From Arthrobacter dokdonellae (GTDB taxonomy: Bacteria > Actinomycetota > Actinomycetes > Actinomycetales > Micrococcaceae), in contig NZ_CP029642.1 in NCBI RefSeq assembly GCF_003268655.1, positions 2,170,001 to 2,234,000 of the forward strand: DNA of 64,000 nt, written 5' to 3'. Every line of letters starts with the position of its first letter. Positions within the stretch are counted from its first letter, which is position 1. The notes under the pieces were generated by a model. That model made no database searches. It worked only from the letters and a program-made list of their open reading frames with translations, and was not told the origin of the DNA. A program made the position numbers and the translations under genes. Below are positions 2,215-14,512 of the stretch, in pieces.

Positions 2215-2440
2215 GGAGGACCTTAAGGGTGGAAAGCCGGGTGCGGGCGGCGGGAACAGGTTACACATCCTATGGCGCGGCGGTGAGGCTTGTCGAGACC
2301 TGGCCCGCCGCTGGTTGCGCTTGTTGAGACTCCGGCGTGCGCCGATTGTGCAGTTTTGGCGACGTACGACGCCGGTCACCCCGCCGTATCCGTGCCCTCG
2401 CCGCCCGTAGCGCCTTCAGCGGCCCGGCCGGGACCAGGCG

Positions 2441-2974
2441 TCAGCCGTGCAGGACCTTCTGGAACAGCACGTGGTCCTGCCAGGCGCCGTTGATCTTGAT
2501 GTACTCCGGCGCCAGTCCGATCTCCACAAACCCGTTGCGTCCCAGCACCTTCCGGGAGCCCGTGTTGTGCCCCAGCGTCGCGGCCTGCAGCCGGTGAAGG
2601 CCCATTTCGGTGGCGAAGGAGGCGACGAAGGCCACGGCCGCCGTCGCAAGGCCGCGCCCCTGAAAGTCGCTGGCAATCCAGTAGCCGACGTGCCCGTTCT
2701 GGAATGCGCCGCGGACCACGTCGGTGAGGGAAATGCACCCCAACAGTTCGGAGCCGTCGAACATGGCCCAGAAGAAGCTGCGGCCGGCAGTCCGCTCGGC
2801 CAGTGAGGCGGACAGCCGCTCGTGCTGGCCGGCGGAGGTGTAGAAGCTGTCCGGACGGATCGGTTCCCACGGCTGCAGGTAGGTCCGGTTCCGTGCATAG
2901 GCAACCGCCAGGGCGTCGGCGTCGGACGGTTCAAGGGGACGGATGGAGACGGAGTCGTGGAGCGCAACAGTCAT
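2441..2974 (-). CDS. GNAT acetyltransferase, RimJ/RimL type
   Basis: A 177-residue acetyl-CoA-dependent N-acetyltransferase. The start MTVALHDSVSIRPLEPSDAD and the downstream GHVGYWIASDFQGRGLATAA contain the acetyl-CoA pyrophosphate-binding loop (Q-G-R-G-L-A), followed by NTGSRKVLGRNGF, typical of enzymes that modify the N-terminal Ala of ribosomal proteins or antibiotics. The frame continues upstream through low-complexity Gly/Arg/Ala, which is the translated repeat at 2997-3116, so the ATG at 2974 is preferred. Target unknown. Confidence 0.85.
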   Translation of the reverse strand: MTVALHDSVSIRPLEPSDADALAVAYARNRTYLQPWEPIRPDSFYTSAGQHERLSASLAERTAGRSFFWAMFDGSELLGCISLTDVVRGAFQNGHVGYWIASDFQGRGLATAAVAFVASFATEMGLHRLQAATLGHNTGSRKVLGRNGFVEIGLAPEYIKINGAWQDHVLFQKVLHG

Positions 2975-2996
2975 GCGTCCCAGCGTACGGGAGGCC

Positions 2997-3116
2997 GGCG
3001 CCGCACTCCGCCCGCGCACCCGGCGCCGCACTCCGCCCGCGCACCCGGGACCGCACCCCGTCCCCGCACCCGGCGCACCCGGCGCCGCACCCCGTCCCCG
3101 CACCCGGCGGCGCCCC
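2997..3116. repeat. GC-rich degenerate tandem repeat
   Basis: Between the SDR and GNAT genes the sequence repeats a unit of roughly 20-25 bases built on CGGCGCCGCACTCCGCCCG and GCACCCGG, about five times with drift. It contains no long runs of A or T. It separates the three-gene acyl-CoA operon from the GNAT gene. No function is visible; it may be slippage-generated. Confidence 0.7.
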
Positions 3117-3120
3117 GGGT

Positions 3121-3942
3121 CTACTCGCGCGTCGGCCGGTCCGGGAGCGTCAACGGCTCCGTGACCTGGTGGTAGTAGGGGGCCGCGGCCACCGTCATTC
3201 CGCCATCCACCACCAGGGTCTGCCCGGTCATGTACGCGGACTTGTCGGAGAGCAGGAATTCCACGGCGTTGGCCATGTCCGCGACAGTCCCGGGGCGTCC
3301 CAACGGGATGGTTTCCAGCACCCGCTCCATGGGCGCCATCCCAGGCATCCCGTAGAAATAGTCGAGCGAGTCGGATTGGATGAGTCCGCCGTTGACCCCG
3401 TTGACGTTGATGCCGTAGCCGGCAAATTCCACAGCCATGTAGCGGATGAACGACTCCACCGCCGCCTTGTACGGGCCCAGCGCGGCGTAGCTGGCGAAGC
3501 CGCGCGTGCTGCCGTAGCTGGTCACGGCCACGATCCGCCCGCCGTTGTCCATCAGCTTCACGGCCTCCTGCGCGCCCAGGACAAAAGGGCGCAGGTTCAT
3601 GGCGTAGGAGCGGTCAAGGTGATGGACCTTCAGGTCCACGATCTTCTTGAACGCCGCGGCGGCGGCATTGTTGACGAAGTAGTCCAGGCGGCCGTACTCG
3701 GCGGCCGCGGCGTCGAACAGTTCAACAATGCCGGCAGGGTCCTCCACATCGGCCTTGACCGAGATGGCCCGCCCACCTAACCGCCGGGCCTCGGCGGCGA
3801 CGTCGTCCGCCAGGTCCGCGTTCCGCCGGTAGTTGACGACGACGGCGGCCCCCTCCGCGGCGAGCGCCAGGGCCAGGTGCCTGCCGATCCCGCGCGACGA
3901 GCCGGTGATCAGGGCAATTTTTCCGTCGTACTTTCCGCTCAC
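3121..3942 (-). CDS. Short-chain dehydrogenase/reductase, FabL/ChcA-like enoyl reductase
   Basis: A 273-residue NAD(P)H-dependent SDR. The cofactor loop GSSRGIG is at residues 14-20 and the NNA motif near 91-93. The catalytic Tyr152 and Lys159 are spaced Y-x6-K (YAALGPYK) rather than the classical Y-x3-K. That spacing is known from FabL-type enoyl-ACP reductases and suggests reduction of an enoyl thioester rather than a ketoacyl group. It overlaps the acyl-CoA dehydrogenase gene by 4 bases (ATGA), so the two are translationally coupled. In this operon it is a candidate for reducing cyclic enoyl-CoA intermediates (as ChcA does). An ordinary FabG/FabL role cannot be excluded. Confidence 0.8.
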   Translation of the reverse strand: MSGKYDGKIALITGSSRGIGRHLALALAAEGAAVVVNYRRNADLADDVAAEARRLGGRAISVKADVEDPAGIVELFDAAAAEYGRLDYFVNNAAAAAFKKIVDLKVHHLDRSYAMNLRPFVLGAQEAVKLMDNGGRIVAVTSYGSTRGFASYAALGPYKAAVESFIRYMAVEFAGYGINVNGVNGGLIQSDSLDYFYGMPGMAPMERVLETIPLGRPGTVADMANAVEFLLSDKSAYMTGQTLVVDGGMTVAAAPYYHQVTEPLTLPDRPTRE

Positions 3943-5144
3943 GCGCCTGCCTCTTCCTGTGCTGCCGCCCGGTCAAGGAGGTCCTTGGCAATGACCGTCT
4001 TCTGGATTTCGTTGGTGCCTTCCTCAAAGCGCTGGGCGCGGGCGTCCCGGTAAACCCTTTCGATGGGTTCGGACTTCCAGTAGCCCAGCCCGCCGTGGAC
4101 CTGCAGGGCCTTGTCGGTGACGCGGGTGAGCATGTCCACCGCCGTCAGCTTCGCCATCGAGGACAGCGCCGCGGCGTCGCCCGCGACGTCCTCCCACTGC
4201 GCGGCGGCGTGCATGACCAGGGCCCGGGCGGCCTGGATGTCGGCGGCGTTTTCGGCCAGCATGAAGGCGATCGCCTGCCGGGAGGCGATGGGCTTGCCAA
4301 AGGTGACGCGCCGCCTGGCGTAGGCCACGGCCAGTTCCTGCGCCCGTTCGGCCAGGCCCACGCAGCTCATGGCCACCGAGATCCGGCTCGGCGTCAGGAA
4401 GCCGCCCAGCGCAATGGCCAGCCCGTCGCCCTCCCGCCCCAGCCGGTTGGCCACGGGCACGGGCGTGTCGCGGAACGTCAGCCGGGCGTGGTCGGTGCCG
4501 CGCACGCCCATGGTGTTCGAGGTGTCCTCCACGGTGGCGCCGGGGGATTCGCGCCCCACCAGCAGGGCCACCGTCCCGTCCTTGCCGAGGCTGCCTTCCA
4601 GCCGGGCGAACAGCAGCCAGTAGTCGCAGTCCACGCCGAAGGTGATCAGGTGCTTGTGGCCGTTGAGCAGGTACACGTCCCCGTCGCGGCGCACAGTGGA
4701 GGTGATGTCCGCACCGGTCCCGTTGTCGGGTTCGGTGAGCGTGAAGGCCACGGTGATGTCCCCGGCCACCGACGGCACCACGAATCGTTGGCGCTGTTCC
4801 TCGGTGGCGTGCGGGTTCATGGAGCGCCACGTGCCGTTGACCACGTGGACAATCATCCGGATCGACGCGTGCGACCGCGAGAACACCTCCATCAGGCCCA
4901 TCCACTGCGTGAAGGAAAGCCCCGCACCGCCAAGTTCGCGCGGCGCGGCCAGCCCCAGAAAGCCGCGTTCCCTCAGCTCCGTCCGCAGAGTCGCCGGGAC
5001 GGCGCCGGTGGCCTCGATCACGCCCGCCCACTTTTCGCCGGGCCCCTCCACCCACTCCGTCACCCCGGCGAGAAGCCGCTCGTAGCTTCCGGGGTCGACG
5101 GCGGTGCCGCGCCCGTCCAGGCCCGCCAGCTGGCCAACCGTCAT
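3939..5144 (-). CDS. Acyl-CoA dehydrogenase
   Basis: A 401-residue FAD enzyme that introduces, or in some pathways handles, an alpha,beta double bond in acyl-CoA esters. FAD/substrate motifs include AFTLTEPDNGTGAD near 133-146 and the GGLGYWKSEPIERVYRDAR block near 351-369. The catalytic base is Glu375 in RFEEGTNEIQ. Family length is about 380-400, so it is complete. The start overlaps the stop of the upstream fusion gene by 4 bases. Together with the ligase fusion and the SDR it forms a compact acyl-CoA pathway. The substrate is not deducible from sequence alone, but the context suggests a cyclic acid derived from shikimate. Confidence 0.88.
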   Translation of the reverse strand: MTVGQLAGLDGRGTAVDPGSYERLLAGVTEWVEGPGEKWAGVIEATGAVPATLRTELRERGFLGLAAPRELGGAGLSFTQWMGLMEVFSRSHASIRMIVHVVNGTWRSMNPHATEEQRQRFVVPSVAGDITVAFTLTEPDNGTGADITSTVRRDGDVYLLNGHKHLITFGVDCDYWLLFARLEGSLGKDGTVALLVGRESPGATVEDTSNTMGVRGTDHARLTFRDTPVPVANRLGREGDGLAIALGGFLTPSRISVAMSCVGLAERAQELAVAYARRRVTFGKPIASRQAIAFMLAENAADIQAARALVMHAAAQWEDVAGDAAALSSMAKLTAVDMLTRVTDKALQVHGGLGYWKSEPIERVYRDARAQRFEEGTNEIQKTVIAKDLLDRAAAQEEAGA

Positions 5145-8100
5145 GGCCGTCCCTCCCGTCCGTCGTCCGCTCCCTGCCCGCCGGGCGCCTGTCCGTCCGC
5201 GGACGACGCCGTACCTTGCGCCGGTGACGTCCCGTGCCCCGTGAGGGGCGCGAGCCGGGCGGCGCGTTCGCGGAGCACAAACTTCTGCACCTTGCCCACA
5301 ATGTTGCGGGGGACCGCGTCCACGATCTCCAGCCGCTCGGGCCAGTAGTGCTTGCTGACGCCGTGGCCGTCCAGGAACTCCTGCATCCCGGCGAACGTCA
5401 GGCTGGCGCCGGGGGCCAGCGCGACAAAGAGGCAGGCACGTTCGCCCAGCCGGGCGTCGGGCATGGCCACGATGGCGGCCTCGCCGACGGCCGGGTGCGT
5501 GTGCAGCAGCTGTTCGATCTCGTAGACCGGCAGCTTCTCCCCGCCCCGGTTGATGACGTCCTTGACGCGCCCGGTGATGCGCAGGTAGCCGTCGTCGTCC
5601 AGGGTGGCCACGTCGCCTGTGCGGTACCAGTGGTCGGTCGTAAAGGTCTCCGCGGCCAGTTCGGGCCGGTCGAGGTAGCCGTCGAAGACGGTGTTGCTGG
5701 AGATCTCGAGGTTGCCGTCCGCGCCGGGGGGAAGCGGCCGGCCGTCGTCGTCGATGATGCGCAGCCGGACGCCCGGCAGCGCCCGGCCGTCGGTGCCCCA
5801 GGCCTTCGCCGGCGGGTCGTAGGGGGCGGAAAGGGTGGCAAGCCCGGTTTCCGTGGTGCCGAAGGCGCCGCAGACGGCGGCGCCGAGCACGCGGGTGGCG
5901 CGTTCGGCCAGGGCCCGGGGGACGGCGGCGCCGGTCACCACAAAGGTGTGCAGCCGCGCCGGGGCGCGCGCCCCGCCCTCAACCGCGTGCACCAGGTCGG
6001 TCAGAAACGGCGTGGCGGCCTGGACAAAGCTGCCCTCCCAGTTGTGGAGGACGGCGAGGGCACGGTCGGCGTCCCACACGCTTTGCACGATCTGCGGGGC
6101 ACCCAGCACAAAGGCCAGCCACATGCCGTAGAGGAAGCCGGTCTGGTGCGCCAGCGGGGAGGGGATGAAGACGGTGTCGGATCCGCTCAGGCCGAGCTGG
6201 GCGGCCTGCAGCGCGGCGGCGCGGGAGAGCCTGCGGTGGGTGTGGACCACGCCCTTGGGCGGGCCGGAGGTGCCGGAGGTCAACAGAAGCTGGGCGTCGT
6301 CGTCGGGGCGGGGCGCGCGGGCGTCGATGGCGGCGCGGTCCACGTGCGCTGCTGCCCTGGCCTGGTGCCAGACCTGCCACCGCACCGGGCCCGGCGAGCC
6401 GGTGCCGGGCGGCATCAGCCGGGCCGTGCCGGGTGTGCCGTGGACCACAAACACGTGTTCCACCATGATGCCATCCAGCAACGGATCGCGCCCGGCCGCT
6501 GCCGCGTCCAGGAGGGCGGCCGTTTCGTCGGAGTGCTGGCGGCCGCGAAAGTTGTCGGCGACGATCAGGATCCTGGCCCGGGACTGCTGCAGCGCGTACG
6601 CCATTTCGCGCTGGCGGAAGATGGGCATGATGGGGCAGATGACGGCCCCGATCCGCATGGCCGCGGCGGCGATCACCACGAACTGGCGCCAGTTGGGCAG
6701 CTGCACGGCGATCCGCTCCCCGTGCTCCACGCCGAGGGAGAGGAACACCGCCGCGGCGCGGTCCACGTCGTCGTCCAGCGCCTGCCAGCTCAAGTGCGGG
6801 GCCGTGTCCCAGCGGGCGTCGACCACGGCCAGGGCGTGCGGCTTTTCCGCCGCCCACTTGCGGATCCAGTCGGAGGCGGTGAGCTCCCCGGCGGACTCCG
6901 CGCGGGCCAGGGAGTCGCTGACGGCGGCCTGCTCGGCCAGTGCCGTCGTGGCGCCCTCGCGCGCCGGACCGGCCTCCACCTCCATGTCCAGCCCCAGCGT
7001 CTGCATGGCGTCCAGGAACATGGGGTAGGAGATGCGGTAGGCGTTGGGGTAGGTGAGCAGGGAACGGCCCTCCGCGGCGGAGGCGGCAACGGCCAGCGAC
7101 ATCAGGACCCGGTGGTCGTTGAAGGACGAGAGGTGCGCGCTGGCCAGGCGCGGCACGCCGCGGACCCGCAGGTCGGTGCCGTCAAAGTCCAGGTCCGCGC
7201 CCATGGAGTTCAACTGCAGCATGGCCACCACACGGTCGGACTCCTTCAGGCGCACATGCTCCACATGGCGGAACACGCTTTCGCCGTCGGCAAGGGCCGC
7301 CATCACGGACAGCACCGGCAGCATGTCCGGCACGGTGCGGCAGTCCACCTCCACGGGGGCCAGCCGCATGCCGTTGTGGCGCACGCGCACGCAGTCCGCC
7401 CCGGCGTCGTATTTCATGGGAAGGCCCATGGCGGAGACGATGTCCAGGAGCTCGGACTCGGGGTGGTCGGTGCCGTCGGAACTGGTCTGGCGCAGGCCCT
7501 TGAGCAGGATGTCGGCGGGGTGCATCCCGGCCACGGCAAGGCCGAACGCGGCCGAGCCGATGTCCGGCGGCAGCACCAGGTCCACCGGGCGGGCCTGCTG
7601 GTTGGCCGGGATGTGGAAGCGCTGCCAGTCGCCGGCAACGTCCACCTGCAGGCCGAACTGGCGCATCATGCGCACGGTCAGCTCCACGTAGGTGCGCTCG
7701 TTCAACGGCCCGTCCACCACCACCGTTGTCGCATCGAGCGCGAACGGGGCGGCCATGAGCAGCCCCGACACCCATTGGGAGAGGGTGCCGGCAATGTGCA
7801 CGACGCCTCCGGTGGGGCGGCGCGCCTTGACGTGCAGGGGCGGGCAGTCGTTGGGCGAATGGGCCTCGATGCCCATTTGGCCCAGTCCTGCCAGGAGCGG
7901 GCCGATGGGCCGATGGGCGAAGTATTTTTGGCCCGTGACCGTCACATCGCGGTCCGCCAGGGCGGCCAGTCCGGCCAGAAAGTACAGGGTGCTGCCGGAG
8001 CTGCCCGCGGACACCGTCCCGTTGCGCGCGCGATACGGCCCGCCGTGGACAATGAACGTATCCCCCTCCACCTCAATCCGCGTGCCGAGCGAGCGCAGGG

Positions 8101-8275
8101 CGGAGACGGTGTACTGCACGTGCCGGGCGTCGCTGAGGCCGCGGATCCGGCTGGTGCCGGGGGCCAGGGAGGCCAGGATCAGCGCGCGGTGGGCGTGGTA
8201 TTTGGAGTTGGGGACCAGAACGGTCCCGCGGACAAGGTCGGTGGTTCCCACGACTGACAAATGCACAATTCGCAC
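5141..8275 (-). CDS. Fusion: EPSP-synthase-like domain + acyl-CoA/AMP ligase
   Basis: A 1044-residue two-domain protein. Residues 1-435 are AroA-like (5-enolpyruvylshikimate-3-phosphate synthase fold). Recognisable residues, by E. coli numbering, are K22=K25, R27=R30, R124=R122, D313=D317, K340/E341=K344/E345, R344=R348 and H385/R386=H388/R389. Several ligand residues differ: S23 is Y26, S169 is Leu, N336 is His, and K411 (PEP-binding) is replaced around I415. Residues 460-1005 are an ANL-family adenylating ligase: P-loop LTSGTSGPPKG at 665-675, TGDVATLDDDGY at 886-897, and a C-terminal GK (K995) for the first half-reaction. The start is GTG at 8275 with no strong Shine-Dalgarno. The fusion implies substrate hand-over from a shikimate-like compound to CoA activation. 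It is unlikely to be the housekeeping AroA. Confidence 0.82.
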   Translation of the reverse strand: MRIVHLSVVGTTDLVRGTVLVPNSKYHAHRALILASLAPGTSRIRGLSDARHVQYTVSALRSLGTRIEVEGDTFIVHGGPYRARNGTVSAGSSGSTLYFLAGLAALADRDVTVTGQKYFAHRPIGPLLAGLGQMGIEAHSPNDCPPLHVKARRPTGGVVHIAGTLSQWVSGLLMAAPFALDATTVVVDGPLNERTYVELTVRMMRQFGLQVDVAGDWQRFHIPANQQARPVDLVLPPDIGSAAFGLAVAGMHPADILLKGLRQTSSDGTDHPESELLDIVSAMGLPMKYDAGADCVRVRHNGMRLAPVEVDCRTVPDMLPVLSVMAALADGESVFRHVEHVRLKESDRVVAMLQLNSMGADLDFDGTDLRVRGVPRLASAHLSSFNDHRVLMSLAVAASAAEGRSLLTYPNAYRISYPMFLDAMQTLGLDMEVEAGPAREGATTALAEQAAVSDSLARAESAGELTASDWIRKWAAEKPHALAVVDARWDTAPHLSWQALDDDVDRAAAVFLSLGVEHGERIAVQLPNWRQFVVIAAAAMRIGAVICPIMPIFRQREMAYALQQSRARILIVADNFRGRQHSDETAALLDAAAAGRDPLLDGIMVEHVFVVHGTPGTARLMPPGTGSPGPVRWQVWHQARAAAHVDRAAIDARAPRPDDDAQLLLTSGTSGPPKGVVHTHRRLSRAAALQAAQLGLSGSDTVFIPSPLAHQTGFLYGMWLAFVLGAPQIVQSVWDADRALAVLHNWEGSFVQAATPFLTDLVHAVEGGARAPARLHTFVVTGAAVPRALAERATRVLGAAVCGAFGTTETGLATLSAPYDPPAKAWGTDGRALPGVRLRIIDDDGRPLPPGADGNLEISSNTVFDGYLDRPELAAETFTTDHWYRTGDVATLDDDGYLRITGRVKDVINRGGEKLPVYEIEQLLHTHPAVGEAAIVAMPDARLGERACLFVALAPGASLTFAGMQEFLDGHGVSKHYWPERLEIVDAVPRNIVGKVQKFVLRERAARLAPLTGHGTSPAQGTASSADGQAPGGQGADDGREGRP

Positions 8276-8369
8276 CCGATTCCCATTGACAAGGTCTCTG
8301 CGTCCGCCCGTACGGGGGCTTTGCTGCCAGCCTACGCGTTGACGGCGGGAATGGGCAGGGGCGTTTTTA

Positions 8370-9962
8370 TCAGTCCGGCACCAACATGGTGCGTAAATCC
8401 AGGCGGCGCAGCACCTGGTCGGCAGCGACCGTGTCCGAGCCCGTTTCGCCGCGCGCGGTCACCATTTCCTGCCGGGCTGCGTCGAGGGCAAGGGACTGGA
8501 CGGCGATGGCCCAGCCCCGGAACTCGGAGCGTTCCTCCTTGGCCGCGTCGGTGGGCGTGCCCGCCAGCTCAGTGTGGAGCTGCAGCAGCTGCCTTTTGAC
8601 CCATTCGATCCTCTTCTCATCCACGCCGTCGAGGAGATCGGAAGCCTGCACGGCAGCCATGGCCGCGCCCTCGGCCCGGGAAGCGAGATCCTGCTCGATC
8701 TCCTTTTGCGTTTCCGGCGATTCCGACAGGCGAAGCCGTTTCATCAGCCACGGCAAGGTCAATCCCGGCAAGACCAGCGTGCTCAACAGTACGGCCACGG
8801 CCAACAGGACTATCTGCGCGCGGCCTGGGAACGGCGAGCCGTCAGCCAGCGTGGACGGCAGGGCCAGTGCAAGCGCCAACGTTGCCAGTCCGCGCATGCC
8901 GCACCAGGTGAGCGCCGCGACGTCCTTCGCGTTCGACGGCGGTGCGCCGGCTCCGCGACGCCGGCTCGGCAGCACCAGCAGTGCCAGCCACGCGGCGCGG
9001 ACGGCAAAGCAGAGGACGCAGATCAGTGCCGCCGGCCAGGTCAGCGCGCCAATGTTCGTCTCCTGGCCTTCGGCGGCCTGGCGGACTTCCAAGCCCACCA
9101 GGCCAAAGGCGACGCCCGTCACCATCAGCTCCACCACGTCCCAGAAGGCGGTAACGGTGACCCGCTCCTGCGCAGCACCGGCGCGGCTGCCGCGCCTGAT
9201 CTCCAAGGCCGTGACGACGACGGCAACGACGCCCGAGGCGTGGACCGAATCCGCCGCTATGTACACCGCGAACGGGACCACCAGGGTGACCGCGCTGTGC
9301 CCCACGGGATTGGTGACATAGTCCATCAGCTTCTTGGTGACCCAGCCGGCGGCCAGGCCGATGGCGGCCGCGCCGACGGCCCCGAGCAGAAATGAAACGA
9401 TGATGCCGGGCCCTACGTCCTGGCCGGCCACGGCAGCCGCGACGGCCGTCTGAAAAATGACGATGGCGGTGGCGTCGTTGAACAACCCCTCGCTCTGCAG
9501 CACACCGCTCAGCCGGCGGGGCATCCGGACCTTCCCGGCAATGGACTCCACGGCGACCGGATCAGGCGGGGCCACCATGGCGCCGAGGGCGATGGCCGCC
9601 GGTATGCCTATTCCGGGCACCAGCAACCAGGCGGCCCCCGCCACCGTTGCCGTCGTCACCACGACCAGCGCAACCGCCAACAACACGATGCTGCGCCAGC
9701 GAACCCGGAACACGGACCATGATGACTTCAACGCGGTGGCGAACAGCAGCGGCGGCAAAAAGAGCGGCAGAATCAGTTCGGGCTCGATTTTGACCTGCGG
9801 GAACCCGGGGATGAATGCCGCACCGGCAGAAAGAATAATCATCAGCACCGGATACGGCAGACGGATGCGGTCCCCGAGCCCAACCATGAGGACCGTAGCC
9901 AGCATCAATCCAACAATCACTGCCAAGGTTCCCAACGCCACCACCACCGCTTTTTCGTTCAT
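8370..9962 (-). CDS. Na+/H+ antiporter, CPA1 (NhaP) family
   Basis: A 530-residue membrane antiporter. About twelve hydrophobic segments fill residues 5-400. The motif GAMVAPPDPVAVESI followed by QSEGLFNDATAIVIF contains the Asp and Asn-Asp residues of the CPA1 ion site. The hydrophilic C-terminal 120 residues, rich in charged helices, are a cytosolic tail as in YjcE-like bacterial members. It probably exports Na+ or K+ against protons. It is 94 bases upstream of the AroA-ligase gene on the same strand, with no obvious functional tie. A short A/T-poor gap precedes the next gene. Confidence 0.88.
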   Translation of the reverse strand: MNEKAVVVALGTLAVIVGLMLATVLMVGLGDRIRLPYPVLMIILSAGAAFIPGFPQVKIEPELILPLFLPPLLFATALKSSWSVFRVRWRSIVLLAVALVVVTTATVAGAAWLLVPGIGIPAAIALGAMVAPPDPVAVESIAGKVRMPRRLSGVLQSEGLFNDATAIVIFQTAVAAAVAGQDVGPGIIVSFLLGAVGAAAIGLAAGWVTKKLMDYVTNPVGHSAVTLVVPFAVYIAADSVHASGVVAVVVTALEIRRGSRAGAAQERVTVTAFWDVVELMVTGVAFGLVGLEVRQAAEGQETNIGALTWPAALICVLCFAVRAAWLALLVLPSRRRGAGAPPSNAKDVAALTWCGMRGLATLALALALPSTLADGSPFPGRAQIVLLAVAVLLSTLVLPGLTLPWLMKRLRLSESPETQKEIEQDLASRAEGAAMAAVQASDLLDGVDEKRIEWVKRQLLQLHTELAGTPTDAAKEERSEFRGWAIAVQSLALDAARQEMVTARGETGSDTVAADQVLRRLDLRTMLVPD

Positions 9963-10063
9963 CAGGGACTAAAAACAGCGTAGTCGTCAATCCCCGACGC
10001 GTCGGCGGCATCCGGGGCAGTGATGGTGTTGGCGCCCTCCGCGGTGCATGGCGGGGGCCGGCA

Positions 10064-10426
10064 TCAATGCTCGCGCGCCCGAATCCCGGCACAGGTCACG
10101 CAGTGCCTCGCCTCCGGCCGGATCTCGAGCCGTTCGGCCGGAACCGGTTGCCCGCAACGTTCACAAATGCCGAAGGTTCCGTGCGCCAGTCGCTCCTGCG
10201 CTTCCCGCAACTCAGCCACTTGGGCGTCAAGGAACGCCAACAGGGCAACGGCCCGCTCCCGCTCCAACGTCACGGTGGACCCTTCGGGGTCGTGTTCATC
10301 ATCCGCCGGCGTATCGCGGTGGGCGAGCGTCACTTCACGGATTTCACCGCGCAGCCTGGTGACCTGTCCCCGCGCATGTTCCACGCGCGCGGCCAATAAC
10401 TCCCGGAACAGCTCGTCATGAGGCAT
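10064..10426 (-). CDS. DksA/TraR-family zinc-finger protein
   Basis: A 120-residue protein with a predicted coiled-coil N-terminus (Leu/Arg/Glu rich, residues 10-80), followed by a four-Cys zinc finger CERCGQPVP ... CVTC near residues 90-113. This is the architecture of DksA/TraR proteins, which bind the RNA polymerase secondary channel. Actinobacterial members of this size are mostly uncharacterised; many lack the acidic Asp pair at the coiled-coil tip. Standalone gene, 53 bases from the Rieske gene on the same strand. Confidence 0.8.
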   Translation of the reverse strand: MPHDELFRELLAARVEHARGQVTRLRGEIREVTLAHRDTPADDEHDPEGSTVTLERERAVALLAFLDAQVAELREAQERLAHGTFGICERCGQPVPAERLEIRPEARHCVTCAGIRAREH

Positions 10427-10479
10427 CCCTTAGGCTACCCCGATCGCGGCGGGCGCGTCAGGATGCCCGTGGCGGCCGG

Positions 10480-10968
10480 TCAGACCCTCACGGTGATCCA
10501 GTCGCCGTCGATGGCCGCCGCGAAACGGGGCAGCGCCTCCCTGGCGGGCCCGGACACCACCGTGCCGTCGGTCCCCTTGAACACCGAGCTGTGGCACGGG
10601 CACTTGAAGTCGGCGCCGTCAGGCGCCACCGCGCAGCCGGCATGCGTGCACACGTCGCTGTAGGCCAGCACCGTGGCCGCGTCCGGACGGTAGATCACCA
10701 CGTTGACCCCGTTGGCCGTGCCCGCGGCGGTGGCGCCGACGGCCAGCTCGGAGACCTTTCCCACCCGCACCGGCGTCCCCGTGGTGGGGATGGGTTGCGG
10801 CGCGGACACCCTTTTGGAGGCCGGTGACGCTGCCGGCACGCACCCGGCCAGCGCCAGGGCACAGGCGCCGCCGGAGACGGCGGTGGTGGCCCGGAGGACG
10901 TTGCGGCGGCTGGGGGAGGACACAGGGGACGACGCAGCGGACGACACGGGGGAAGGCTCAAGAGTCAT
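10480..10968 (-). CDS. Rieske [2Fe-2S] lipoprotein with Tat signal
   Basis: A 162-residue exported iron-sulfur protein. The N-terminus has a twin-arginine motif SRRNVLRATTAV, a hydrophobic stretch, and a lipobox ALAGC, so it should be Tat-exported and lipid-anchored on the outer face of the membrane. The Rieske cluster ligands are CTHAGC and CPCHSS (two Cys, two His). I chose the ATG at 10968 because AGGA lies 8 bases before it; the frame is open 15 codons further. The cluster family resembles small actinobacterial Rieske proteins that sit apart from the cytochrome bc complex, so its electron partner is unknown. Confidence 0.88.
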   Translation of the reverse strand: MTLEPSPVSSAASSPVSSPSRRNVLRATTAVSGGACALALAGCVPAASPASKRVSAPQPIPTTGTPVRVGKVSELAVGATAAGTANGVNVVIYRPDAATVLAYSDVCTHAGCAVAPDGADFKCPCHSSVFKGTDGTVVSGPAREALPRFAAAIDGDWITVRV

Positions 10969-11069: not shown

Positions 11070-13211
11070 TTAGGCGGTGTGGAAGCGCCTGCCGTTGACA
11101 CGCTCCGAGGCGCCCGTGCGGTCCAGGTACGGGGTGATGCCGCCCAGGTGCATGGGCCAGCCGGCGCCGAGGATCATGCACAGGTCGATGTCCTCCGGCC
11201 CTGCGACCACGCCCTCGGCCAGCATGAGGCCGATCTCCTCGGCGAGGGCGTCCCGGGTCCTGCCCAGCAGTTCCTCGGCGGTGGAGGGCGTGGTGCCGAA
11301 GGACAGCAGGGCCAGGGTGTCGGCCGGAATATGGTGCGAGCCGTCCTCCGTCTTCTCCCACAGCCCCTTTTTGCCGGCGTCGACGAGCGCCTGCAGGTTG
11401 GCAGAGACGGCGATCCGGTCGCCGAACGCGGCGTGCATGGACTCCGTGACGTGCTGTGCCACGGGCAGGCCGACCATGGCGAGCAGCGTGAAAGGGGTCA
11501 TCGGCAGGCCCAGGGGGCGCAGCGCGGTGTCGGCCGTGTGGGCGTCGGTGCCCTCGTCGAAGGCCTGAAAGACCTCGCTCATGAGGCGCAGCAGCACGCG
11601 GTTCACCACAAATGCGGCCGCGTCCTTGACCAGCACGGCAGTCTTGCGCAGCGCCTTGGCGGTGGCAAAGGCGGTGGCGAGGGCGGCGTCGTCGGTCTTG
11701 GGTGCCCGGACGATCTCCAGCAGCGGCATGAGCGCCACGGGGTTGAAGAAGTGGAACCCCACCAGCCGTTCGGGGTGTTCCAGGCCCTCCGCCATGGCCG
11801 TCACGGACAGTGAGGAGGTGTTCGTGGCCAGGATGCACTCCGGGGAGACGATGGCCTCCACCTCGGCAAACACCTGCTTCTTGACCTCGAGCTCTTCAAA
11901 CACGGCCTCGATCACGAAGTCGGCGTCGGAGAACGCCTCCTTGGACACGGATCCGGTGACCAGCGCCTTCGTGCGGTTCGCGGCGTCCGGGCTGATGCGG
12001 CCCTTGGCCAGCAGCTTGTCCACTTCGCCGTGCACGTAGCCCACACCCTTGTCCACGCGTTCCTGGTCAATGTCTGTCATGACGACGGGCACCTTGAGCA
12101 GCCGCGCGAAGAGCAGCGCGAACTGCCCGGCCATGAGGCCGGCGCCCACCACGCCGACCTTGGTGACGGGACGGGCCAGCTTGGCGTCGGGCGCGCCGGC
12201 CGGGCGCTTGCCGCGCTTTTGCACCAGGTCCAGGAACGCGTACACGGTGTCGCGGAACTGGGGCGTCTGCATGAGGTCCGCCAGCGCGTCTTCCTCGGCC
12301 GCAAAGGACTCCGCGCGGGTGAAGTTCCTGCCCTTCTCCAGCAGTTCGATCACGCGGGCCGGTGCCGGGGCGGCGTTGGAGGTCTTGGCCTCCACCAAGG
12401 CCTTGGCATGTTCGACGGCGGCATCCCAGGCCGCGCTGTCCGCCTCGCTCAACGGCTCGGAGACAGCATGGGGGCGGGCGGGCGTCTCGGCACCTGCCAG
12501 GACGCGGGCGGCCCAGTTGACCGACTGCTCCACGAAGTCCGCCGGTTCAAAGATCGCGTCGGCAATGCCGAGCTTGAAGGCGGCCGCGCCGCTGAGGGTG
12601 CGGTTGTTGGAGAGGGGGTTTTCCAGCATGACCGTCACGGCGTTGGCCGGGCCGATGAGGCGGGGGAGCAGGTAGACGCCGCCCCAGCCGGGCACCAGGC
12701 CCAGGAAGGCTTCGGGCAGGCCCAGCGCGCCGGCGCCGGTGGACACCGTGCGGTAGGTGGCGTTGAGGGCAATTTCCAGGCCGCCGCCCAGGGCCAGGCC
12801 GTTGATGAACACGAAGCTGGGCACGCCCAGGTCGTTCAGCGTGGAGTAGACGTCGTGCCCCAGGCGGGCCATCAGGCGTCCTGCGTCCTTGTCCTTGAGG
12901 CTCTTCACGGCGGAGAGGTCGGCGCCGGCCGCCAGAAAGTACGGCTTGCCGGTGACGCCGACGCCGGCAATCTCGCCGCGCGCCGCCCTGTCCCGCTGCG
13001 CCTCCAGGACGGTGCCCAGTTCCACGAGCGTGTTGGGGCCGAGCGTGCTGGGCCGGCGGTGGTCCAGGCTGTTGTCCAGGGTGATCAGGGCAAGGGTGCC
13101 GGCGCTCGGGGCGCCGTCCACGCCGGGCAGGGGGATGTCCTGGACGTAGGAGTGTGTCACCACCTCGTCGGGGACAAGGTCCGTGAGCTGCTGGAAATCC
13201 CGGGCGCTCAT
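11070..13211 (-). CDS. fadB: Multifunctional 3-hydroxyacyl-CoA dehydrogenase/enoyl-CoA hydratase (FadB type)
   Basis: A 713-residue fatty-acid beta-oxidation enzyme. The N-terminal crotonase domain (about 35-260) carries the oxyanion Gly-rich GLALGGGLEIAL and candidate catalytic Glu146 and Glu167. The NAD-binding fold begins VGVVGAGLMAG near 352-362, followed by the hydroxyacyl-CoA dehydrogenase domain with SSLSVTAMAEGLEHPERLVG and HFFNPVALMPLLEIV (catalytic His). The frame is open 53 codons upstream, but the ATG at 13211 forms a 4-base ATGA overlap with the thiolase stop, so it is preferred. It works with the thiolase as the hydratase, dehydrogenase and thiolysis steps of each cycle. Confidence 0.92.
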   Translation of the reverse strand: MSARDFQQLTDLVPDEVVTHSYVQDIPLPGVDGAPSAGTLALITLDNSLDHRRPSTLGPNTLVELGTVLEAQRDRAARGEIAGVGVTGKPYFLAAGADLSAVKSLKDKDAGRLMARLGHDVYSTLNDLGVPSFVFINGLALGGGLEIALNATYRTVSTGAGALGLPEAFLGLVPGWGGVYLLPRLIGPANAVTVMLENPLSNNRTLSGAAAFKLGIADAIFEPADFVEQSVNWAARVLAGAETPARPHAVSEPLSEADSAAWDAAVEHAKALVEAKTSNAAPAPARVIELLEKGRNFTRAESFAAEEDALADLMQTPQFRDTVYAFLDLVQKRGKRPAGAPDAKLARPVTKVGVVGAGLMAGQFALLFARLLKVPVVMTDIDQERVDKGVGYVHGEVDKLLAKGRISPDAANRTKALVTGSVSKEAFSDADFVIEAVFEELEVKKQVFAEVEAIVSPECILATNTSSLSVTAMAEGLEHPERLVGFHFFNPVALMPLLEIVRAPKTDDAALATAFATAKALRKTAVLVKDAAAFVVNRVLLRLMSEVFQAFDEGTDAHTADTALRPLGLPMTPFTLLAMVGLPVAQHVTESMHAAFGDRIAVSANLQALVDAGKKGLWEKTEDGSHHIPADTLALLSFGTTPSTAEELLGRTRDALAEEIGLMLAEGVVAGPEDIDLCMILGAGWPMHLGGITPYLDRTGASERVNGRRFHTA

Positions 13212-14512
13212 GCTGCGCTCCCTTCGTCGTCGGTGGTTGAGCCTGGGGCCACGGCAGCAGGGTTTCCTGGCCGAGCTTGCGAGGTTAGGGGGCGGCCGGG
13301 GAGCGAAACCGTCGGGGTCCAGTGCGGGTTTTCCCAGATGACGGTGGCGCCCATGCCCAGGCCGATGCACATGGTGGTCAGCCCCAAGCGCACCGACGGG
13401 TCTTCCTCGAACTGCCGGGCCAGCTGGGTCATGAGGCGTACGCCGGATGACGCGAGGGGATGGCCGACGGCGATGGCGCCGCCGTAGCGGTTGACGCGCG
13501 GGTCGTCGTCGGCGATGCCGAAGTGGTCCAGGAAGCTGAGCACCTGGACGGCGAAGGCCTCGTTGATTTCAATCAGGCCGATGTCCTCGATGCCGAGTCC
13601 GGCCAGCTTGAGGGCCTTTTCGGTGGCGGGGACCGGCCCGATCCCCATGACCTCGGGCTCGACGCCGGCGAAGGCGAACTGGACCAGGCGCATTTTCACC
13701 GGCAGGCCGAGCTCGGCGGCGGCGTCGGACGAGGCCAGAAGGGCCATGGTGGCGCCGTCGTTGAGGCCGGCGGCGTTGCCCGCCGTGACCCGCCCGTGGG
13801 CGCGGAACGGGGTGCGCAGCGCGGCCAGGTCCTCGAGGGTGGTGCCGGGCCGGGGAGGCTCGTCCACGGTGTTGACGGTCCAGCCCTGGCCGGGCTTCAT
13901 CGTGGCGACGGGCACCAGGTCCGGCTGGATCCGGCCGTTCGCGCTGGCCGCGGCGAACTTGGCCTGGCTGGCCACGGCATACGCGTCCGTGCGGTCCTTG
14001 GTGATGGCGGGGAAGCGGTCATGCAGGTTCTCCGCGGTGTTGCCCATGGTCAGGGCGGCGGGGTCCACGATCCGCTCGCTCATGAAGCGGGGGTTGGGGT
14101 CGGCGCCGGCGCCCATGGGATGGTGTCCCATGTGCTCCACGCCGCCTGCCAGGACCACGTCGTACGAGCCGACGCCGATGCCGGAGGCGGTGGTGGTCAC
14201 GGCGGTCATGGCGCCGGCGCACATGCGGTCGATGGCGAAGCCGGGGACTGACTTCGGCAGGCCCGCGAGCAGCGCGGCGGTGCGGCCGATGGTCAGGCCC
14301 TGGTCGCCGGTCTGCGTGGTCGCGGCGATGGCCACCTCGTCAATGCGTTCCGCCGGCAGCTGGGGGTTGCGGCGCATCAGTTCGCGGATGCACTTGACCA
14401 CCAGGTCGTCGGCGCGGGTGTTGGCGTAGAGGCCCACGTCCGAGGCCCGTCCGAAGGGGGTGCGGACACCGTCAACGAAGACGACGTCCCTGATCTGCCG
14501 ATTCTGGCTCAC
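13208..14512 (-). CDS. fadA: Acetyl-CoA acyltransferase (thiolase, FadA type)
   Basis: A 434-residue thiolase that cleaves 3-ketoacyl-CoA to acetyl-CoA and a shortened acyl-CoA. The nucleophile is Cys98 in DRMCAGAM; the second active-site pair is His in GHPLASSG and Cys in MCIGLGMG near the end. The last 30 residues after IWENPHW are an extra Pro/Ser/Thr-rich tail beyond the normal family end. It is first in the operon with the fadB-type gene and has a recognisable promoter with an operator-like palindrome upstream. Confidence 0.92.
   Translation of the reverse strand: MSQNRQIRDVVFVDGVRTPFGRASDVGLYANTRADDLVVKCIRELMRRNPQLPAERIDEVAIAATTQTGDQGLTIGRTAALLAGLPKSVPGFAIDRMCAGAMTAVTTTASGIGVGSYDVVLAGGVEHMGHHPMGAGADPNPRFMSERIVDPAALTMGNTAENLHDRFPAITKDRTDAYAVASQAKFAAASANGRIQPDLVPVATMKPGQGWTVNTVDEPPRPGTTLEDLAALRTPFRAHGRVTAGNAAGLNDGATMALLASSDAAAELGLPVKMRLVQFAFAGVEPEVMGIGPVPATEKALKLAGLGIEDIGLIEINEAFAVQVLSFLDHFGIADDDPRVNRYGGAIAVGHPLASSGVRLMTQLARQFEEDPSVRLGLTTMCIGLGMGATVIWENPHWTPTVSLPGRPLTSQARPGNPAAVAPGSTTDDEGSAA

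Follow-up and report, generated by a model that had tools for sequence, protein, structure and literature searches.

A three-gene operon of Arthrobacter dokdonellae resembling known cyclohexanecarbonyl-CoA cassettes, with a predicted role in omega-cyclohexyl fatty acid synthesis

The stretch of DNA analysed here (hereafter referred to as the window) comprises 64,000 nucleotides of Arthrobacter dokdonellae (contig NZ_CP029642.1; G000:C1:2170001-2234000), whose genome consists of two contigs and 4.53 Mb. It carries an operon of three minus-strand genes, encoding a fusion of a domain similar to AroA, the 5-enolpyruvylshikimate 3-phosphate (EPSP) synthase, with an AMP-forming acyl-coenzyme A (CoA) ligase, followed by an acyl-CoA dehydrogenase and a short-chain dehydrogenase/reductase (SDR). 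An initial annotation, made from the sequence alone, had proposed that such genes lead from shikimate to cyclohexanecarbonyl-CoA (CHC-CoA). The gene set and order, the remodelled AroA-like domain and the co-occurrence with a second ketosynthase (KAS) elsewhere in the genome suggest, with a probability of roughly 0.75, that shikimate is converted by the operon into an acyl-CoA with a cyclohexane ring, most likely CHC-CoA, and that type II fatty-acid synthesis most likely takes this ester as its primer to give omega-cyclohexyl fatty acids.

Organisation of the operon

The operon runs from 8275 to 3121, and both of its junctions are 4-base overlaps as read from the junction letters; this layout and the families assigned to the three products in the initial annotation were borne out by the open reading frames (ORFs) and by Pfam (Table 1). 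The frame of the fusion gene also stands, while its start is probably the GTG at 8266 (MHLSVVGT..) rather than the codon at 8275. Among seven close homologues, P0001, P0008 and P0010 (as MQLSV) match the start at 8266, P0002 and P0003 have an upstream start and P0004 and P0005 begin elsewhere. All three genes are under purifying selection, with ratios of nonsynonymous to synonymous substitution of 0.07-0.26 (Nei-Gojobori method, against the loci L058, L005, L006, L007 and L010 of relatives).

Table 1. Features of the operon, with positions in the window (pLDDT, predicted local distance difference test; pTM, predicted template modelling score)
Feature	Position	Strand	Basis
AroA-like/acyl-CoA ligase fusion (PlmJK-like), 1044 residues	5141..8275, likely start 8266	-	Pfam, NCBIfam, homologues; model pLDDT 84.5, pTM 0.79
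AroA-like domain, residues 14-424, altered EPSP-synthase active site	7004..8236	-	EPSP_synthase (PF00275), residue columns, tree, model fold
Flexible interdomain linker, residues 438-449	6929..6964	-	pLDDT under 50
Ligase AMP-binding domain, residues 472-868	5672..6862	-	Pfam AMP-binding; best NCBIfam match TIGR03208, below cut-off
AMP-binding C-terminal domain, residues 919-995	5291..5521	-	Pfam AMP-binding_C
Acyl-CoA dehydrogenase (PlmL-like), 401 residues	3939..5144	-	Pfam acyl-CoA dehydrogenase N, M and C domains; present in 63/63 comparable loci; FEEGTNEI glutamates retained in 73/74 linked rows (one row, a gap)
Y-x6-K short-chain reductase (ChcA-like), 273 residues	3121..3942	-	Pfam adh_short_C2; FabL best NCBIfam match, below cut-off; 49/63 comparable loci; motif Y152-x6-K159 retained in 57/57 linked SDRs

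Correspondence with known cassettes

The ansatrienin genes ansJKLM-chcA and the CHC genes of asukamycin, with which the operon had initially been compared, are a counterpart in function, the likeness being one of functions rather than of compared sequences; the first half of the phoslactomycin protein PlmJK is likewise taken by us, from its name and not from a published table, to be AroA-like. In the gene table of the lactomycin cluster, which has six genes for cyclohexanecarboxyl-CoA, lmP1 corresponds to pnP1 and plmJK, a single gene listed as 'AMP-dependent synthetase and ligase', lmP2 to plmL (short-chain-CoA dehydrogenase), lmP3 to ChcA (cyclohexenylcarbonyl-CoA reductase) and lmP4 to plmM (NADH:FMN oxidoreductase) (PMC5852498). 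Cyclohexanecarboxyl-CoA is described as being taken by the phoslactomycin polyketide synthase (PKS) (PMC9730843). The operon shares with the phoslactomycin and lactomycin sets (pnP1-P4, lmP1-P4), as tabulated, a fused AroA-like/ligase gene, followed identically by an acyl-CoA dehydrogenase and then an SDR (PMC5852498), but differs in having no linked PlmM reductase and no PKS neighbour, and in that the linkage evidence points to a FabF-type KAS at another locus.

For the comparison with relatives, 79 loci were drawn from the best 80 of 114. Of these 79, 63 extend 6 kb or more past the fusion on its downstream side and are comparable, the other 16 being too short for counting. The commonest arrangement among these 63 is the set and order plmJK-plmL-chcA-plmM as tabulated for the known clusters, of which the present operon has the first three: an AroA-like domain fused to a ligase, a dehydrogenase next to it and a Y-x6-K SDR after that. 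The dehydrogenase is found in all 63, a reductase of the old yellow enzyme (OYE) type in 52, the SDR in 49 and all three in 40. As far as gene set and families go, the pathway proposed in the initial annotation holds, and the operon appears to be the counterpart of PlmJK-PlmL-ChcA, by gene set, order and family rather than by alignment to Plm proteins; the SDR was assigned as ChcA-type by family, motif and position. The operon is a further example of a known CHC-CoA cassette, without a linked PlmM. The fusion of the first two functions, pointed out in the initial annotation, is present as described but is neither new nor special to this genome, since plmJK is already one gene in the phoslactomycin table and the best 120 homologues all have both Pfam parts.

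A linked OYE-type (PlmM-like) reductase is lacking in 11 of the 63 loci, so linkage is not universal. As in the window, it is not found by the operon in L005, L007, L008, L009 and L058, and the related L057 keeps one. A scan of three linked reductases (L010, L011 and L016) placed Oxidored_FMN and Pyr_redox_2 domains in each; the only two-domain OYE match of the A. dokdonellae genome (C1:1853939-1855963) is 49% and 41% identical, over two parts, to the linked one of L010. The PlmM step may be performed by this two-domain OYE in trans or by a single-domain OYE, or else be accomplished otherwise.

The AroA-like domain

The AroA-like domain is modelled with the fold of EPSP synthase, a call based on re-examination of the Foldseek matches with VIA-align, the Foldseek result itself not being accepted. 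With E. coli AroA and its residues in contact with shikimate 3-phosphate and phosphoenolpyruvate as the reference, the contacts K22, R27, G96, R124, Q171, D313, K340, E341, R344 and R386 are retained, whereas others are altered (S23Y, S169 deleted, S197E, N336H and K411I). These changes are uniform or nearly so across 120 fused and 101 short homologues, the latter being the proteins of 400-499 amino acids in a set of 120 (the other 19 were not counted); rows from the own genome (L001, L003 and L004) were not used in the residue columns. The short rows include fragments at contig ends, and therefore no count of gene splits was drawn from them.

In a tree containing 25 of the 101 short rows, and omitting the PF00275 rows L004, L154, L156, L158 and L162-L166, the AroA-like sequences form a 56-row clade of their own (branch 1.94, support 100/99) apart from housekeeping AroA, and a separate housekeeping AroA is encoded at C1:3619606-3620829. 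The initial annotation had raised both points, and both agree with its proposal. The domain thus differs from EPSP synthase in a remodelled substrate pocket and in its separate clade, and we read it as a probable shikimate lyase rather than an EPSP synthase. Recruitment of an EPSP-synthase homologue into another pathway has a parallel in BsnM of the bisenarsan cluster, which is described as being proposed to transfer enolpyruvate to arsenate (PMC12159101) and is set beside the AroA-like domain here by description, not by sequence.

Distribution among relatives

Homologues of the fusion are common, 805 of 8000 scored candidates having matched. The 79 loci include Micrococcaceae, Microbacteriaceae, Streptomyces, Lentzea and Micromonospora as well as metagenome bins of Eremiobacterota and Bacillota. 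By the fusion, the closest named relatives are Arthrobacter wenxiniae (L058), at 91%, and Arthrobacter sp. SDTb3-6 (L005), at 89%; Specibacter cremeus has the operon too. A 97% identical homologue, P0001, is labelled 'Bacillus sp. SRB_336'; the label is probably wrong, because the other named close homologues are all from actinobacteria of the Micrococcaceae type. The occurrence of the fusion is patchy, with 17 of 197 genomes of the family and 3 of 11 of the genus. In a sample of the phylum it is seen in 1 of 396 genomes, that of the window itself; in four more genomes of the sample, all of one family, the AroA-like protein, ligase, dehydrogenase and SDR are each encoded by a gene of their own, side by side, and in the two of these that were read further no OYE match was found within the stretch examined. 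In the class to which the genome of L071 belongs, 33 of 154 genomes match, many of them through the ligase alone; in one genome of this class, the Bacillota-type G325 (L177), the AroA-like protein, ligase, dehydrogenase, OYE and SDR are encoded by five adjacent genes.

Twelve loci have the fusion, the dehydrogenase and the OYE-type reductase without a linked SDR (L016-L023, L048 and L079 of Arthrobacter; L013 and L015 of Cellulomonas). In L063 (5100-8135, a Solirubrobacteraceae bin) and L075 (9776-13019, Microbacterium elymi), decay or sequencing error has split the fusion into two or three reading frames.

A second ketosynthase and the fate of the ring

The genome encodes one FabH above the cut-off, and a search with the fabF model gave six matches, of which the two strong ones are stand-alone KAS of FabF size; no modular PKS ketosynthase was seen in this search, and omega-cyclohexyl fatty acids are for this reason taken as the likeliest sink. 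About 176 kb separate the second KAS (C1:1996314-1997561) from the operon, and its gene overlaps one for an acyl-CoA ligase (L098 6603-8318). This KAS shares only 41% identity with the FabF of the same genome, but 70% with the KAS that adjoins the operon in Microbacterium sp. STN6 (L010) and 58-62% with ten more operon-linked KAS. In a tree with one housekeeping FabF, the L010 KAS falls inside a clade of unlinked Micrococcaceae KAS (18 rows, 100/100), and a larger clade of 28 rows unites these with the other ten operon-linked KAS (99/99).

Among the 197 family genomes, the fusion and the second KAS are present in 17 each and together in 15 (hypergeometric P = 1.6e-18, kinship being ignored). 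Within the genus both occur in the same 3 of 11 genomes (P 0.006), and when counted by genus, 3 are shared, of 5 and 5, in 32 genera (P 0.018). A ligase adjoins the second KAS in all 17 KAS genomes; beside the operon-linked KAS no such ligase turned up, the best matches (26-33%) being nearly all the fusion itself. The link of the second KAS and its ligase with the CHC operon appears to be new, the literature search not having been aimed at this pair. A KAS of a different type stands by the operon in Eremiobacterota (L030, L032, L037, L078 and others) and near it in L177 (3690-4868); this type is FabF-like, 33-38% identical to the second KAS, and lies beside a ligase in L179 and L180. In Kutzneria (L082) a PKS module adjoins the operon, which fits a starter-unit role in general.

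Cyclohexyl-C17:0 is attributed to Humibacter and Frondihabitans, which the literature consulted did not confirm. Omega-cyclohexyl acids are reported from Alicyclobacillus, Curtobacterium pusillum and Propionibacterium cyclohexanicum (PMC5023266; for Alicyclobacillus also PMC10562698) and omega-alicyclic acids from Sulfobacillus (PMC4378227). For Herbiconiux, several species of which have a short AroA-like protein, it is stated that 'Cyclohexyl-C17:0 may be present' (PMC10011130).

Neighbouring features

On the 5' side of the fusion, 94 bases away, lies a minus-strand gene for a Na/H exchanger (8370-9962). A scan for promoters and terminators over 2300-10500 gave no signal above chance. A G+C-rich tandem repeat (2995-3109, periods of 25 and 34 bases) lies directly past the stop of the SDR gene and overlaps the start of a minus-strand ORF (2441-3103). 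The other contig, C2 (171.6 kb), has identical matches at 12779-13920 and 168598-169739, 155,819 bases apart, as would be expected if C2 were a circular plasmid of some 156 kb with its ends duplicated in the assembly.

Proposed pathway and alternatives

In the order of reactions that we infer, the AroA-like domain would open the route, probably by dehydrating shikimate; the fused ligase would load the resulting cyclic diene acid onto CoA; the ChcA-like SDR would reduce enoyl-CoA double bonds, the acyl-CoA dehydrogenase would move or reduce other double bonds, and a flavin-dependent dienoyl-CoA reductase in the role of PlmM would be supplied from elsewhere in the genome. The CoA ester would then prime type II fatty-acid synthesis towards omega-cyclohexyl fatty acids, aided by the dedicated FabF-type KAS and its ligase. 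To our knowledge, no enzymology has been published for the first step of the route from shikimate to CHC-CoA. A more specific version is put forward tentatively, at somewhat short of even odds: the AroA-like domain, an EPSP-synthase fold turned lyase, would dehydrate unphosphorylated shikimate, and the ligase fused to it would receive the diene acid; entry of the ring ester into the fatty acids of these Micrococcaceae would be through the dedicated, dispersed ligase-KAS pair, making the omega-cyclohexyl lipid pathway a two-locus module.

Several observations weigh against the synthesis of CHC-CoA for fatty acids. The window holds no PlmM-like gene, and all five OYE-type matches of the genome lie outside it. 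The two-domain OYE is present in all 11 genus genomes searched, as against 3 of 11 for the fusion, and is hence not a dedicated enzyme; as a dedicated PlmM it was ruled out. The AroA-like part passes the cut-off of the aroA model TIGR01356 (302.8 against 287.25). The other three functions each score below the curated cut-off of their best NCBIfam model: the ligase with cyclohexanecarboxylate-CoA ligase TIGR03208 (452.9 bits against 792.3), a substrate class that nevertheless suits the initial proposal, the SDR with FabL (246.8 against 328) and the dehydrogenase with acryloyl-CoA reductase (250.1 against 640). Two family genomes have the fusion without the KAS (G118 and G150), and two have the KAS but neither the fusion nor a CHC-type AroA (G004 and G017). 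Herbiconiux daphne has an AroA-like protein (P0194), yet no cyclohexyl acid stands among its listed major fatty acids (PMC10011130), and no lipid data for A. dokdonellae were found in the literature. The KAS-ligase pairs without the fusion lie at G004:C6:120112-121338 and G017:C5:18294-19520 (L207 and L195, respectively), and their substrate may be another acid or an imported one.

The operon could stop before CHC-CoA and, without PlmM, yield a ring acyl-CoA that is partly reduced or carries a hydroxyl group and is put to some other use; the three genes are under selection although a PlmM-like gene is absent both from the window and from beside the operon of the five relatives named above. This is nevertheless improbable, as the dehydrogenase and the SDR share 77-96% identity with their counterparts in relatives that have the reductase, including L010, and a FadH-type OYE is encoded elsewhere in the genome. 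It is also unlikely, though worth keeping in view, that CHC-CoA is made for a secondary metabolite and not a membrane lipid, as might be expected from the modular PKS fed by the known counterpart in the lactomycin table (PMC5852498) and from the Kutzneria module; the stand-alone nature of the only strong fabF-model matches (two of six) and of the linked or co-occurring FabF-type partner argues against this, while that KAS may serve a specialised purpose.

Degradation of cyclohexanecarboxylate by a ligase and a dehydrogenase, as in the bad-ali route, would account for the resemblance of these two proteins to TIGR03208 and, more weakly, to TIGR03207 and NF043006. The description of that route names no AroA-like part, which here is conserved and fused to the ligase, and no operon protein is BadK, BadH or BadI by Pfam, the genome not having been searched for Bad proteins; a catabolic role was, within that limit, judged very unlikely. 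A duplicate EPSP synthase, which the fold, the retained contacts and the TIGR01356 score might suggest, is scarcely credible: it was ruled out by the separate clade and the near-uniformly altered active site, and the housekeeping AroA is encoded as well. Synthesis of CHC-CoA as a primer for fatty acids is hence the preferred reading. Under it, the genome predicts omega-cyclohexyl fatty acids in Arthrobacter-like bacteria and points to the KAS-ligase pair as the likely dedicated elongation step, while the conserved changes in the active site make the first step testable on one purified domain. If this holds, the fusion together with the second KAS would mark such lipids in soil actinobacteria, and the fusion would do so in Eremiobacterota as well.

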